Part shown: positions 19,169-25,714 of the stretch, piece by piece
How the letters are laid out: each line of letters starts with the position of its first letter
Numbering within the stretch: position 1 is the first letter of the stretch
From: Acarospora socialis
Taxonomy: Eukaryota > Ascomycota > Lecanoromycetes > Acarosporales > Acarosporaceae
Reading direction: 5' to 3'
DNA length: 64,000 bases
Assembly: GCA_025617375.2 (NCBI GenBank)
Contig: JAMYGW020000003.1
Coordinates: 868,001 to 932,000 of the forward strand
Notes under the pieces: generated by a model
The model's input: only the letters and a program-made list of their open reading frames with translations
Database searches by the model: none
Told to the model about the DNA's origin: nothing
Program-made: the position numbers and the translations under genes

Positions 19169-21486
19169 CTACCCGTAACTAGCATTAAATGACACATCTT
19201 CGCCGACTATGGTTTTATACGTAGTTCTTGCATACTCCTCTGCGCGTCCTGAGTCTTCTCTTAGCCCCATTGTCGTGAAGGCAGTCCGTATGTGCAGGAA
19301 CGTCTCCACCAAATGATCCACCATCAAGCCCCACCTAACAACTGCGAAGTGTGTGCGCGACGAGTCAGCACCAATAACGCCAAAGCCAAGTGAAGTAAGA
19401 ACCTTCACCGCCGCCTCCATACTCTTGCTCGCCTTGTTCTGGGCCACGTAGATACGCGCCAGCGCCAGCTGCGGATCCCAGAGGAGGAGACGCGGGACAA
19501 CTTCTGCAGGCTGCGTGTACGTTTGATTCAGTGCGTCGAGCAGGCCCTCGATCTTCTTCGTCTCAACGTGGCGCGGCGCTGACGAGTTGAAGACTCGCTT
19601 TAGATCCTCCATCAGGTTTCGTCTCTTCCGAAGGATAAGAGCATCCGTTGTCCTAATATCTAGACAGATGGCACATCCACAGACGAAACCCCACTGCTTG
19701 TGCTTTTCAGGCCTGGCACTGATACCATCGGGACTGTGATACCAGAATGTGATTTCGGTGCCAGCTTCCATGTCGCGGGACGCGCGCACAATCATCATGT
19801 TGCCTATAAATGCGCGGCGGGCGTTGCTGGTGCAGCTGTGGTTGATATACGATGCATGCACCCAGATACCGCACGAATGATGTGCCTTTTGTTCCGTGGT
19901 TTTGTCAGCTAGGGTAGGGTACCGGTCACGGGCCTCGGTGTGAGAAGCCAGACTGGAGACTGGACAGCCGAAGACGTTGAAGGAGATGATCCGTTCGACG
20001 AGAAATCTGGGCATGCAACGGGAGTCAGTATATGATCATCGACAACTTTGTTCAAGAGCGCATTTACGTATCAACTATTGGCGTTGCATCGACCGTCGAC
20101 GTGCTCACTGCTTCGTAAGCTCCATGATATAGAGTGGTGAAAGCTCGGGCAGAAGATGGGTTGTGATAGAGCTTTTGCACGATGAGCTTGATGAGGTCTG
20201 CCTGTGCGCCTATATATCCCTGATCTGTCTCAGGATTTATCAATAGGCTATACTCGTCACCTGTACCTTCACCTATGTAAGCATGACTGAATGCTTTTTC
20301 GCACAGGAGTAAGTCTCCCGCCTTCACATCCCTGGTGACGAACAAACCGCGACCCTTAGAGTCCGTCTGTCTTATCTCAACGGGCCCAATGTAAGTGGCG
20401 TGATCCAAGTGTGGCGGTCGAATTTTCTTAGCCTCTGCCTGGAGCTGCTTGAAGTCGTACACGCCAGTCTTCTGCTCTAGGGATCGACTTTGAGCACGGT
20501 CAAGAACCATTGAGGCTTGGCTGTTGTGTGGAAAGTTGGTGCGAAGCATTTCAAGCACTTGGCAGCATTCGCTGAATTGTTCGAGGTTGTAGAGGGCTTC
20601 GGCGGAGCGGAACAGTGCCTTCTCTGCGGGATTGGGGTTGAAGTTGGGAAAGCCCGTGTCGGAGAGTGCGGCGTTGTATTGCTTGGTTTTAAGAAATGCA
20701 AGCGATCTGTTGCGCTTGATGATTTAAACCTGATTCGCTGTAGCTGGCTGGCCGAGTGCATCCGAATACCTGTTTCAGTCATTGATTAGACGTTGCTTCT
20801 TGCGTGATAAGGTATGCTTACTCTGTGATAGCGTCCCAATATCTGCTCTCCATCATGAAAAGGTTCCCCTTGATCTTCAACGACTCCGCCGAACGTTCAG
20901 TCTCGACTAATCGCGGCTGCCATGCTTTAGGGATCCTAGCATCGTCCCTCTTGAGGTGGATGACATCGGAAAGATGATCCACACGTAGACCATACTCGCC
21001 ATCCCCCATGACCTTGAACTAGGGCTCCTTTACTAGCAAGATTGTGCCGATGTTGACGATGTCGGCAGCTGCACGGTTACCCTCGTCTTCCTGCTGATAT
21101 AGTTGCAACATTATTACATCGCCATTCTTATCCTCCATGACTGCCATAATGGCTGTCATGCGGCTGGGCGGCGTGATGGACCGTAATAGGATATAGGTAC
21201 CTCGATGGTGTGTCTCAAGCTGAAGATCTTTAATCGTGACATGTCTCAACTCGGTCATAGGCGTGGTGCATGGTAGATATGCTGGCGGAACAAACGAGGA
21301 ATGAACCATGTGTTTCTGCTCTCTGTTTCCACTTAATGTGAGGGCTACCATGAACTTGCTGTATACATGCTCTCTGGATTTCCGATCGCGAGGTCGCTGA
21401 CCTTGACGCTTTTTGGCTTCCTGCAACGTCTGTTTCTGATGGTTGATCAATTCAGTATACTGCTCAGTGACATTGTATACATCCAT
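19169..21486 (-). pseudogene. TPR/SET-domain (SMYD-type) protein gene with two in-frame stops
   Basis: Three exons, 21486-20822, 20769-20068 and 20006-19169, have good splice sites and keep one reading frame over 735 codons, but that frame contains a TAG at 21021-21019 (between VKEP and FKVMGDGEYG) and a TAA at 20726-20724 (between TANQV and IIKRNRSLAFL). Recognisable parts are an N-terminal module typical of fungal TPR/SET proteins, TPR-like helices (NRSLAFLKTKQYNAAL, AEALYNLEQFSECC) and a split SET domain (GRGLFVTRDVKAGD, then SYINHSCTSNARR and GTEITFWYH) followed by a post-SET-like CGCAICLD. The family is thought to methylate protein lysines. No frameshifts are seen and splice sites are intact, so the stops are recent, are sequencing errors, or the gene is expressed as shorter products (the SET part alone could start downstream). 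Confidence 0.75.
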
Positions 21487-22048
21487 GATGAATTTGTAGA
21501 GACGCTGACAACACTAAGCGGCGATGAGACTCGTTCATGAGATGTAGATGAATAGTATAATGTACTGGATTGAATCGTCAAACCAATAAATAATAAAGCA
21601 CTGTCAGCAGATCTATAGAAGTGTAAGACTTACTGGTGGGCGTGCACCAAGAGGATGCAATAATATTACAGCCAGGTTACAACCACGATGCACCACACCA
21701 GACCGCGGACAAGCGTGGTGGTCAAAAATCGCCGATCCTCCTACAGTACTATCCAGTTATGTAATCCAATAAGAGTGATTTACAAAGAACGACCGTAGCC
21801 CAAAGAACACATGAGGCAAACGAAGACATGCAAAGGGCCACATTCGCCAGGCAAGGCAACGAATCATTGTTCGGGTTTCTTGCCATTAATTAAAGACCCA
21901 CATCATGGACAAGGGTAAATCTCCTGTTTTCCCCCGTATTCAGCCTCCTCATCGCTTCCTCCTCGCTCTATGGAAACGTGGTGAAAGCTAGGAAGTGCTC
22001 CTCAAGTTACTGGTTGGGACTGTTGAGATACCTGAGATCTTCGCAAGA
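21487..22048. other. intergenic region between SET gene start and viperin 3' end
   Basis: 562 bp holding the promoter of the SET gene and the 3' end of the viperin gene. No other feature was recognised. Confidence 0.4.
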
Positions 22049-23224
22049 TTACCATTCCAGAGGACCATGGTCGTCTTTCTTGCATCCTGTGTTAGCTCCC
22101 TCCCTGCTCCAGTCGTAGATCCCTCCTCTTTCAACAAAACTATCCTGGTCCCAATACACCTGAGCAAGTGCTGCAGATACGCCGACCTCCAAGATGGATG
22201 ACGAAGGTTGCTTTCCGTCCCTGTCCAGGAATCGCATGTATTCATCGAGGATCAAATATGACTTTGCCATGAGATTGTTCGGTTCTGCGACAAAACATGA
22301 GAGATGTTGATGTCGATGACAGAACTGCTGAAACTGCTTGTCTGAGATTTGGAATTTCCGGACATCTCGCAAGGTTTGGTCCGAGTCGTTTTCCCCAGCC
22401 ACAAGCAGGACTTGGAAACATTTCCATCGGAACGGTTGGACCTGCTGCACAAGTGGGGTCATGTCCTCCAAGTAGTTCAAGCGGCATACAACAGTGTTCA
22501 GTTTAAACTTGATTCCAAAAGCTTGGCACCATTGCGCAATCCGGATCAGCTTTGGGACCTGATTACCACTGCCTCGTCCGATTGCGATGTTCGTCTGCTC
22601 ATCTGCAGAGTCGCAAGATACAGCCAATATATCGATGTATTGACCCCATGATCTTAGAAAGCTTTCTTCGACCAGGCTGCCATTCGTGACGATTGAGACA
22701 GATTCTAAGCCAAGTTCTCCTTTGCAGAAAGCAAGCATGCTCCCTAAAAAGCGTGGGTAGAGGAAAGGTTCGCCGCCTGCAAAATTGATCTTCCTCATTC
22801 CAGCTGTCTTCAGCAGAGCCAGACCGCGCTTCGCGTCATGTTCGGGTTGCTTGTAGGATGTGGTGGCGGTATGGAAGCAGAAACCACAACTTTTGTTGCA
22901 TTGTCGCGTAAAGTGATAATTGACTGATATCGGAACGTTCTTCTTTTTCAGAGGGAAAGCCCAGCGAAGGGAAGCTGAGAGGAATACAACGAACCCAAAT
23001 GCAAGGAGCAGGACAACCCAGGCGGACACTTTTTCAAGCAAAGCCTTTGCAAAGGCAATGTTGGCTCGCTGGAAATCTGAGAGAAGACGTGTATGTTTTT
23101 CTTTGACGCTTTGAGAACCTGAAAAGTAGTGGTGAATTAAGAGTATAGTTGAGCAACAGAAGGTTCCATGGTCTGTAAGGACGAGCGGGGATGGGATGAT
23201 ATAAGTTGAAGGTGTGACGAACAT
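22049..23224 (-). CDS. viperin-like radical SAM enzyme (RSAD2 family)
   Basis: A single 391-codon frame. Residues about 65-90 form a hydrophobic anchor (WVVLLLAFGFVVFLSASLRW). The radical SAM core starts VNYHFTRQCNKSCGFCFHTA, with the CX3CX2C cluster motif for [4Fe-4S], then KINFAGGEPFLYPRF, VSIVTNGSL, DILAVSCDS and GRGSGNQ. The C-terminal domain keeps FRWKCFQVLLVAGEN and SYLILDEYMRFLDRDGK, RGGIYDWS, and ends in Leu-Glu-Trp, matching the terminal tryptophan that vertebrate viperin needs for Fe-S loading by CIAO1. Viperins convert a nucleoside triphosphate (CTP in vertebrates) to the 3'-deoxy-3',4'-didehydro analogue, a chain terminator for viral polymerases. The N-terminal 40 residues are doubtful: an acceptor-like CAG at about 23120 suggests an upstream exon may replace them. 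The gene is divergent from a UMP/CMP-kinase-like gene. Confidence 0.93.
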   Translation of the reverse strand: MFVTPSTYIIPSPLVLTDHGTFCCSTILLIHHYFSGSQSVKEKHTRLLSDFQRANIAFAKALLEKVSAWVVLLLAFGFVVFLSASLRWAFPLKKKNVPISVNYHFTRQCNKSCGFCFHTATTSYKQPEHDAKRGLALLKTAGMRKINFAGGEPFLYPRFLGSMLAFCKGELGLESVSIVTNGSLVEESFLRSWGQYIDILAVSCDSADEQTNIAIGRGSGNQVPKLIRIAQWCQAFGIKFKLNTVVCRLNYLEDMTPLVQQVQPFRWKCFQVLLVAGENDSDQTLRDVRKFQISDKQFQQFCHRHQHLSCFVAEPNNLMAKSYLILDEYMRFLDRDGKQPSSSILEVGVSAALAQVYWDQDSFVERGGIYDWSREGANTGCKKDDHGPLEW

Positions 23225-23412
23225 GCGTAAGACCGCATAAGTTTGCTAAATGCACAGCACCTACAGGAACCCACATGCATGCAAGCGTATGTAGTCACGC
23301 AGCGGTAGGTTGGCAGGCTTGAGCTGAGACCTGCACTTCTGATCCTCTGTTTGACTGATAAGAGGCCTTCAACAAAGAATACTTGTGAACTGCATTTTTG
23401 GGGGTGAAGGTC
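23225..23412. promoter_or_regulatory. putative shared promoter, viperin / nucleotide kinase
   Basis: 188 bp between the start codons of the divergent viperin and kinase genes. It contains TGATAAG at 23357-23363, a GATA-factor consensus. If the true viperin start lies in an upstream exon the region is smaller. Shared control of an enzyme and its substrate-supplying kinase is inferred. Confidence 0.45.
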
Positions 23413-24199
23413 ATGGCCTTGACAAGTGTATTCCCATTCATCATATGCGTCTTAGGTGAGTGTCAGCAGGTTTGTTCGTTCATTGTCAACTGAATGAGCC
23501 ATAGGAGCACCAGGATCTGGGAAAGGGACGTTATGCTGGCTTCTTACAAAGGACTACGACTTTCACCACCTTTCTGTTGGTGATTACATGAGAGAGGAAT
23601 GTCAGAACCCAGAATCTTCTGAGGGGGAAGCCATCAAAGAATATCTGCAACGAGGAGAATTGGTTCCAACAAAAGTTATATTACCAATGCTTCGGAAGAA
23701 AATTGACGACGAGAGAAAGAAAGGCCACGAACGATTCTTGATCGACGGTTTTCCCAGGCAGATAGAGCAAGGCGTCGAGTTTGAGACAATGGTGACAACA
23801 ACCCGTGCAAGCAGTACGACGGCAGCTAAAGGAGATATACCAGATTCGAAGTCCTGCTCTTGTGATTTCCCTTAAGTGCCCTGAGGATATCGCTCGACAG
23901 CGATACTTGAGTCGCAACTTACCAGGAAGGCTTCTCGACAACCAACCTCTTTTCGAAAAGAGATTTCAAGAGTTTGAAAGAGAAAACCCGACGATTGTGC
24001 AGCATTTTCACGCTGCTGGTAACTTGGTCGAGGTTCGATAGCAGCCAAAGTTCTCCGAGGAAAGTTATTCTAACAACCGAACAAGGTCGATTCGAGTAGT
24101 GAGACGAACGTGTCCTATGAACGATTGCTTGAAGCTCTTAAAAAGAACAATACTTGGAGATGGATAACGAGCGAAGCTGAACAAAGATCGAATCCGTGA
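23413..24199 (+). CDS. UMP/CMP-kinase-like nucleoside monophosphate kinase
   Basis: Exons 23413-23455, 23505 to 23791 or 23773, 23826-24032 and 24086-24199 give 216 or 210 aa. The N-terminal MALTSVFPFIICVL runs straight into the P-loop GAPGSGKGT; then come the NMP-binding segment LSVGDYMREE, LIDGFPRQIEQ, LVISLKCPEDIARQRYL, a short LID (RNLPGRLLDNQPLFEKR) and NLVEVDSS. The short LID places it with UMP/CMP kinases rather than long-LID adenylate kinases. The last two introns differ in quality: intron 3 has a perfect TCTAAC branch, but intron 2 is uncertain. A GTGACA donor leaves only 34 nt yet keeps the conserved EFE, whereas GTCGAG gives a normal 52 nt but drops it; a 1-nt frameshift is the third option. 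Position beside viperin suggests it supplies CTP or UTP precursors, as CMPK2 does in vertebrates. Confidence 0.82.
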
Positions 24200-24465
24200 A
24201 CAAGGAAGCTTGGCGTTTTCGCTGTGTTCGATCACATCAGGAGGTACGACAGACACAGGAGCGTCACAAACACAGTAATCGGGCAGTCTACTGTCCACGT
24301 GGGGCAGCTGTTCGATACCCCGAGACCTGCTTCAGCTGGTTGCCTGCCCGCTCAACAACTGGATGAGTTCTTTCCGTTGCTGCTCTTGCTGTTGTCCGTC
24401 AGTCTGTACAACTTGGTATAGCGTAGCTTCGTCTGACTGCGTTGGCAAACGCAGCCTGGTTAACC

Positions 24466-25125
24466 TTACCTCTTTCCAGCAAAATATGCAGAGAGCTTTC
24501 CCACAGGTTTACCCAAGGCGAAAGCCCAAGAATAGTGCTGCATGAACGCTTGAATATCAGAATCCATCTTGAACGCCATGGCTCGTCTCTGCTGAAGTGC
24601 CGGCTCGCCATCGTCATTCGTTTCCAGTACCTCCTGTAGTTCTACTTCCCCGACGGTATGGTTAAAATCGGTAGTATCAAGCACAATTTCGAATCTGTCA
24701 TCTGCTTGCCATGCGTCTCGATGAGTCGTGAATCGAGCGGTTTCCTGCAAACCAAAGGCTCCTAGTCCGACAGCACAAGCACTTGAGATATGTTTCTTGA
24801 CCAATTCAGCTATCTCGTCCCGTTGCGACAGCTCTCCGAATTGCGAATTTGTGTAATCACCTCCTTGACGGACCTTGGCCTGCCAGTCTCCATTCCGTCT
24901 TCGTACCCACACTCCGTTGGAGGATAGAATCCCGTCATGGTCGTAATAAACATCCTCGAAGCTGCGCCGTCCCATATATTTTAGATTTCGAAAGGCAGGC
25001 GGTCCACAATTTGCATGAAGACGATCAACAAGCCCAAGACTTGGTAGAAATTTCCGCTCGACCTCAACAACAGAACGACGAAGAAGGCAGGCTGCTGTAT
25101 GTCTCATCGAAAAATGGCCTGCCAC
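24466..25125 (-). CDS. CYTH-domain thiamine-triphosphatase-like enzyme
   Basis: A 219-aa frame with the CYTH signature near the N-terminus: VEVERKF supplies ExExK, which binds the triphosphate in the tunnel fold. Downstream are YYDHDGILSSNGVWVRRRNG, WQAKVRQGGDYTNSQFGEL, RFEIVLDTTDF and GEVELQEVLE, whose charged residues would line the tunnel. Fungal homologues are usually named thiamine-triphosphatase (ThTP to ThDP + Pi), but CYTH enzymes also act on inorganic triphosphate or other substrates, so specificity is open. The frame ends GKLSAYFAGKR followed by TAA, but a donor GTAAGG overlaps that stop, and an extra C-terminal exon downstream is possible. The start may be the ATG at 25125 or a few codons later at MRHTAACLL. 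Confidence 0.85.
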   Translation of the reverse strand: MAGHFSMRHTAACLLRRSVVEVERKFLPSLGLVDRLHANCGPPAFRNLKYMGRRSFEDVYYDHDGILSSNGVWVRRRNGDWQAKVRQGGDYTNSQFGELSQRDEIAELVKKHISSACAVGLGAFGLQETARFTTHRDAWQADDRFEIVLDTTDFNHTVGEVELQEVLETNDDGEPALQQRRAMAFKMDSDIQAFMQHYSWAFALGKPVGKLSAYFAGKR

Positions 25126-25714
25126 AAGATTTAGCTCTCATTGGTTCTTCACTGGCAAATACGCTTATCGAGTTTAGCTACCGGGGAAAATTGTGTGGAG
25201 TTCAGTAAAGCTAAGAAAAGATGGGGAAGGTGATCGGGGGAATTACTTTGCGCACGACCGAGACAAAGGTACAAGTACGAAGTCGGCGGACATAAGTCTC
25301 TGCAGGGCATACGTGAGAACCTTGGCGCCTAACTGCGAGGACTACCTAAGGTACTCGTACCTATGTCCACCGACTTCGTATCCCGCTATGATGCGAGCCC
25401 CCCACTACCTTCATCGTCTGTTGCGGTTTTCTTATTCCTGCTTCTTGCAAGGGACCCACTTCAGCACTCGATAAAGAGAAGCTTATCTTACATAGAAACA
25501 ACCATATGGCCGGTTTACTTTTCCCCAATTGGGTACATACCTCATGGCATTCAGGACTAGTTACATCACTCCCCTAGGCCCCTCGGTGGACCAAGGCTAT
25601 CTTCCATTGCCCCGCATCCCATTTAAATCCAGACCCTTTCCGCAATTGAAAGCGCTCTCCATCCTTTGACTTGCCAGTAACCAAGGAATTCTCAAGAAGC
25701 TCCAGACCGCAACA
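25126..25714. promoter_or_regulatory. divergent promoter region, CYTH enzyme / formamidase, with GATA sites
   Basis: 589 bp between divergent starts. Two GATA-factor consensus sites lie close together in opposite orientation: CGATAAA at 25469-25475 and its reverse type CTTATCT at 25482-25488, about 230-245 bp before the formamidase ATG. Formamidase in Aspergillus nidulans is under AreA nitrogen control, so these are plausible AreA-type sites. An ACCTAAGGTACTCGTACCT stretch, the AGGTAC-type motif seen elsewhere in this window, lies at about 25345-25363. Confidence 0.5.

Follow-up and report, generated by a model that had tools for sequence, protein, structure and literature searches.

The genome of Acarospora socialis harbours a viperin (RSAD2-like) gene and a nucleoside monophosphate (NMP) kinase gene which are both open, lie head-to-head and retain their catalytic motifs, the kinase being additional to a canonical URA6. 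Both genes are located in the 64,000-nucleotide stretch of contig JAMYGW020000003.1 analysed here (positions 868,001 to 932,000, referred to as the window), and we consider it rather probable that they form a small nucleotide-analogue unit in which the kinase supplies the substrate of viperin and the product is antiviral.

The viperin coding sequence (22049-23224, minus strand) is presumed to encode a protein of 391 amino acids. An intron-free model suffices, as the frame is uninterrupted from 23245 to 22049, although the start at the ATG nearest to its 5' end (23224) is uncertain. The motifs CNKSCGFC, GGEPF, RWKCFQ and LILDEYMRFL and the terminal Leu-Glu-Trp, which the preliminary description had named, were all found in this single frame. 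The CNKSCGFC motif (22877-22900, minus strand) represents the radical-SAM [4Fe-4S] pattern CxxxCxxC, whose three cysteines are invariant in an alignment of six sequences, while Leu-Glu-Trp and the stop codon occupy positions 22049-22060 (minus strand). The C-terminal tryptophan of viperins is required for cluster loading.

A radical SAM domain was detected by Pfam (PF04055, 52.7 bits; cut-off 29.5). Among the NCBIfam models NF038283 was passed with 253 bits (cut-off 180), whereas TIGR04278 scored 379 bits, under the model cut-off of 450. The best matches in the PDB were 6b4c/7n7i (445 bits), with the 5vsl chain scoring far lower (334 bits). The near full-length match to solved viperins, together with the NF038283 score, bears out the earlier view of a full-length viperin. 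The 6b4c chain, which we take to be the Trichoderma virens protein among the entries given for mouse and T. virens, belongs to the same family, has the same cluster motif and shares 191 of 288 aligned residues (66%) with the Acarospora protein; a hydrophobic N-terminal segment of the latter falls outside the part aligned to the 6b4c construct. In PMC8124187, 5VSL, 5VSM and 6B4C are given as the mouse and T. virens viperin entries. The hydrophobic segment comprises 19 residues (VSAWVVLLLAFGFVVFLSA; 22973-23029, minus strand) with a mean Kyte-Doolittle value of 2.48 and is a candidate membrane anchor.

PADLOC also assigned the protein to the pVip group. The top model was the one for viperins lacking a kinase association (229.8 bits), followed by kinase-associated viperins (222.1 bits) and viperin-kinase fusions (185.9 bits). 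This order speaks against a functional pair, but the difference between the first two is small and the models are prokaryotic. The window copy is the only viperin match found in the genome (31.1 Mb, 38 contigs). According to PMC10732462, the last eukaryotic common ancestor probably already had viperin, and the enzymes of animals and fungi group in a single clade; the mere occurrence of viperin in a fungus is thus to be expected.

The neighbouring kinase gene (23413-24199, plus strand) requires three small introns and consists of four exons (23413-23455, 23505-23791, 23844-24032 and 24086-24199, the last including the stop codon) encoding a product of 210 amino acids. The splice sites were selected via the reading frame and by eye, and 471 splice combinations stay open over more than 190 residues. 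The most likely introns are 23456-23504, 23792-23843 and 24033-24085; the first has a consensus GTGAGT donor and the third a CTAAC branch-like site, while the ends of the second are least certain, with acceptors at 23831 and 23834 also being in frame. Under the chosen splicing the frame is open and, as in the viperin gene, the catalytic motifs are retained, which led us to reject pseudogene status for either gene.

The product had been described as an NMP kinase with GAPGSGKGT, DGFPR and a short LID. This assignment holds, since the adenylate kinase family PF00406 (ADK) was matched with 121 bits and the motifs are present: exon 2 encodes the P-loop (G)APGSGKGT, the NMP-binding GDYMREE and DGFPRQIEQ, and exon 3 the short LID SRNLPGRLLDN and the KRF arginine. 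Pfam also matched AAA_17 (PF13207, 86 bits), whereas the thymidylate kinase family PF02223 gave no match at E 1e-3. The best NCBIfam model was the UMP-CMP kinase family TIGR01359, whose cut-off of 207.6 bits was missed with 142.7 bits, and we therefore refer to the protein as UMP/CMP-kinase-like and not as a certified member of that family.

The nearest solved relative is the yeast uridylate kinase 1uky (131 bits). In the alignment the P-loop, the NMP-site arginine, DGFPR and the LID/KRF arginines are kept. The LID is altered, reading GRLLDN where the canonical sequence is GRSDDN, and is one residue shorter with one aspartate lost. Compared to yeast Ura6, with which it has a similar P-loop and DGFPR in common at 38.5% overall identity, the linked kinase thus has a shorter and less acidic LID. 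It is a fast-diverging enzyme whose activity may have changed. The position which presumably reads the base is occupied by Gln, a residue also found there in yeast Ura6 and in the adenylate kinase 3umf, whereas the UMP-CMP kinase 7e9v has Asn; for this reason we do not claim a CMP preference.

The canonical URA6 of A. socialis is encoded separately on contig C5. It shares 114 of 183 residues (62.3%) with yeast Ura6 and only 69 of 200 residues (34.5%) with the linked kinase, which on these identities is a divergent second paralogue. A housekeeping role of the linked kinase was rejected given this separate URA6, whose existence would leave the second copy free to specialise. Further PF00406 matches in the genome are adenylate kinases with a long LID (C2 and C4) and a broken copy (C1), while the sole PF02223 match found is a thymidylate kinase on C9, away from viperin, and one guanylate kinase was found on C2. 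The searches with PF00406, PF02223 and PF00625 thereby gave six NMP-kinase genes besides the broken copy, a lower bound, with gene models built for some but not all of them.

The viperin ATG (23224, minus strand) and the kinase ATG (23413, plus strand) are separated by 188 bp (23225-23412), in agreement with the distance given before, and this divergent intergenic region is a candidate bidirectional promoter. The distance is a best guess, since a good-looking 3' splice site by eye (TTTTCAG) lies slightly inside the N-terminal part of the viperin frame, and the true start may be spliced and lie a few bases further upstream. A scan of the 188-bp region for bacterial-type promoters gave nothing useful, the method being unsuited to fungi. 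An 8-nt inverted repeat (GTTGAAGG/CCTTCAAC) has one arm inside the viperin frame (23205-23212) and the other in the intergenic region (23366-23373) and may be due to chance.

A single genome cannot tell a functional viperin-kinase pair from a chance one, and the adjacency may be accidental: viperin would then act alone on cellular UTP/CTP and the URA6 paralogue would serve elsewhere, e.g. in AMP or dNMP metabolism. The remaining neighbours agree with such a scenario, as neither the SET-domain gene on the other side of viperin, nor the CYTH-domain gene, nor a formamidase gene shows an obvious link to viperin. However, the probability of finding an NMP kinase as one of the two neighbours of viperin is about 0.1%, a rough post-hoc estimate based on the six NMP-kinase genes (lower bound) and an assumed gene number of about 11,000. 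The neighbour is furthermore an extra pyrimidine-type paralogue and no housekeeping kinase. We regard an accidental neighbourhood as possible, but as the less probable case.

The region adjoining viperin on the SET side (19169-21513, minus strand) includes a SET match at 19169-20035 and a TPR match at 20064-20723 that is under the cut-off; the open frames probably belong to a single gene. A TAG near 21017, which may stem from an intron that escaped recognition, from an error or from decay, cuts off the frame 21019-21513, in which Pfam found nothing.

Prokaryotic viperin loci were examined for comparison. A genome scan gave 305 viperin-like places, and the best 80 of these were analysed with 1251 neighbouring ORFs of at least 80 amino acids within 3.5 kb; this sample is biased toward viperins most like the query and has no control of unrelated radical-SAM genes. 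A nucleotide-kinase-like ORF was detected at 14 of the 80 loci, 12 via phmmer searches that started from two partner kinases encoded on plasmids and two via a P-loop pattern, after a P-loop ORF of 390 amino acids (L099) had been set aside by eye as unlike a nucleotide kinase. The statement that prokaryotic viperins neighbour nucleotide kinases is hence confirmed in so far as such neighbours are recurrent, and PMC11249213 gives a kinase linkage of 15% for bacterial viperins. Conversely, the same screen revealed no kinase neighbour at 66 of the 80 loci, nine of the 80 having 1 kb or less on one side and all 14 kinase loci being among the other 71. Viperin can thus do without a kinase, which adds to the case for an accidental adjacency in A. 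socialis.

In 13 of the 14 loci the kinase lies on the strand of viperin; the exception (L085), on the opposite strand, may be a housekeeping gene. Sixteen viperin-like plasmid records were obtained, and in two of the five that were opened a deoxynucleoside kinase is annotated nearby, the plasmid gene table being incomplete. PADLOC holds models for kinase-associated viperins as well as for viperin-kinase fusions. Scanning viral contigs with a single viperin gave no relative, while a scan with a viperin alignment gave 47 loci, which were left outside every count.

Seven of the 14 prokaryotic partner kinases were typed by Pfam: six are thymidylate kinases (PF02223) and one is cytidylate-kinase-like (PF13189), and none of the seven matched PF00406 at E 1e-3. 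PF13207 also matched three of the seven, more weakly than the linked kinase, and the fungal and the typed prokaryotic kinases all belong to one broad superfamily of P-loop kinases. Neither the linked kinase nor the own URA6 and ADK2 of A. socialis matched any of the 1251 neighbour ORFs at E 1e-3, whereas the linked kinase as query does find distant adenylate kinases in the PDB. The PADLOC model VakA, which we read from its name as viperin-associated kinase, matched the linked kinase marginally (E 6.7e-5, 21.5 bits) and did not match the own URA6 at E 0.01, whereas the five prokaryotic partner kinases that were scanned scored between 46.5 and 187.9 bits. Like the fungal pair, pVip loci with VakA-type kinases or fusions place viperin beside a P-loop nucleotide kinase; they differ in the family of the kinase, as far as it was typed, and mostly in its orientation, the fungal partner being divergent.

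In vertebrates RSAD2 likewise adjoins a kinase that makes the substrate of viperin, namely CMPK2, a mitochondrial enzyme of the thymidylate kinase type (PF02223-like). The linked kinase belongs to PF00406 and has no N-terminal extension, and orthology to CMPK2 was rejected due to the missing PF02223 match. Since its family differs from those of both the typed prokaryotic partners and CMPK2, the preliminary description went too far in assuming one linkage conserved across domains of life. Based on the family assignments, repeated recruitment of kinases by viperin appears to fit better than one pair inherited across domains, and the vertebrate and the fungal pair likely represent independent recruitments. 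Should the pair prove real and be conserved among fungi, viperin would have recruited kinases of different families several times, a sign that substrate supply limits viperin-type immunity.

The viperin-kinase linkage as a general phenomenon is already known; for eukaryotes it was reportedly described by Shomar and colleagues in 2024, in a paper which PMC11249213 cites. No description of a fungal pair was found in titles and the beginnings of abstracts of the open literature, although such a paper may exist. The word "kinase" occurs zero times in the main texts of PMC10732462, PMC11185175 and PMC11291487.

The restriction of the pathway to CTP, as initially proposed, does not seem warranted. 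PMC8124187 names UTP, on biochemical grounds, as a putative substrate of the Thielavia terrestris viperin TtRSAD2, an enzyme of the same family which is likened here by its description in that source, and the linked kinase has Gln at the presumed base-reading position. In the favoured scenario of substrate supply, the dedicated and diverged URA6-type kinase would phosphorylate UMP and/or CMP, perhaps also AMP, to the diphosphate, which a general NDP kinase would convert to UTP/CTP, giving more substrate for viperin. Viperin, perhaps held at a membrane via its hydrophobic N-terminal segment, would turn the NTP into ddhUTP and/or ddhCTP, and these would terminate the RNA chains of viral RNA polymerases. 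The shared regulation, the substrate of the kinase, the product, the membrane anchoring and the antiviral use are inferred. If the pair is real and conserved among fungi, filamentous species would offer a genetically easy way to test whether viperin controls RNA viruses in a eukaryote that has no interferon.

The kinase could also act downstream of viperin, salvaging ddhUMP/ddhCMP from degraded terminated RNA into the active pool. NMP kinases use monophosphates, the sequence does not separate feeding from salvage, and the changed LID and the divergence from URA6 would suit a modified substrate. In PMC11218377, however, the vertebrate CMPK2 is described as phosphorylating CDP to CTP, the substrate of viperin, and we consider salvage improbable.

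On the other side the kinase adjoins, tail-to-tail, a CYTH-domain gene (24466-25107, minus strand; PF01928, 37.2 bits, cut-off 23.2) that is presumed to encode a thiamine-triphosphatase-like protein with an intact ExExK motif (EVERK). Its triphosphatase might clear excess ddhNTP or tune triphosphate pools, thereby shielding the host polymerases within a three-gene set. The GC3 values of viperin (0.52), the kinase (0.455) and the CYTH gene (0.43), in the interval 22049-25137, are the lowest of eight window genes, the five others measured ranging from 0.535 to 0.846, but this may reflect only low expression. Taking into account that all five PDB matches of the CYTH gene are thiamine triphosphatases (3bhd, E 2.3e-13), that phmmer, even with a threshold of E 10, listed no counterpart in the set of 1251 ORFs surrounding the 80 prokaryotic viperins and that the gene lies outside the divergent promoter, such a three-gene function seems highly improbable. 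Membership of the CYTH gene in the viperin-kinase module is thus only a possibility, and its position may be incidental. The Pfam search of the whole genome for CYTH is uninformative on copy number, as it failed to detect even the gene in the window.

A wider scenario, in which fungi made the partnership independently from a URA6 duplicate, with a shared promoter, a UMP/ddhUMP kinase, a ddhUTP-making viperin and possibly the CYTH protein as a safety valve, is in our view rather unlikely in this complete form.

The genome also contains three loci matching the cellular RNA-dependent RNA polymerase PF05183 (G000:C12, C8 and C9; L159-L165), and the fungus therefore probably has RNA interference. 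In two of the seven stretches that were matched, one on C8 and one on C9, the search ran across stop codons, which introns may explain.

The broken kinase copy mentioned above is of the URA6 type and lies at G000:C1:577000-580500 (L014, L166). That it descends as a remnant from the linked kinase was rejected, since URA6 matched the region (tblastn E 1.4e-22) and the linked kinase did not at E 0.01, although a protein search of the whole genome with the latter did reach the copy (3.3e-9). Viperin had no tblastn match in the 9.9-kb stretch around it. The interval 577000-580500 is nearly free of CpG, with observed/expected ratios of 0.0-0.1 in 500-base steps at a GC content of 35-40%, and in L014 CpA (1.55) and TpG (1.46) are raised and TpA (0.51) is not, which points to CpG-directed decay rather than classic RIP. 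In the window every kilobase has a CpG observed/expected ratio of at least 0.5.
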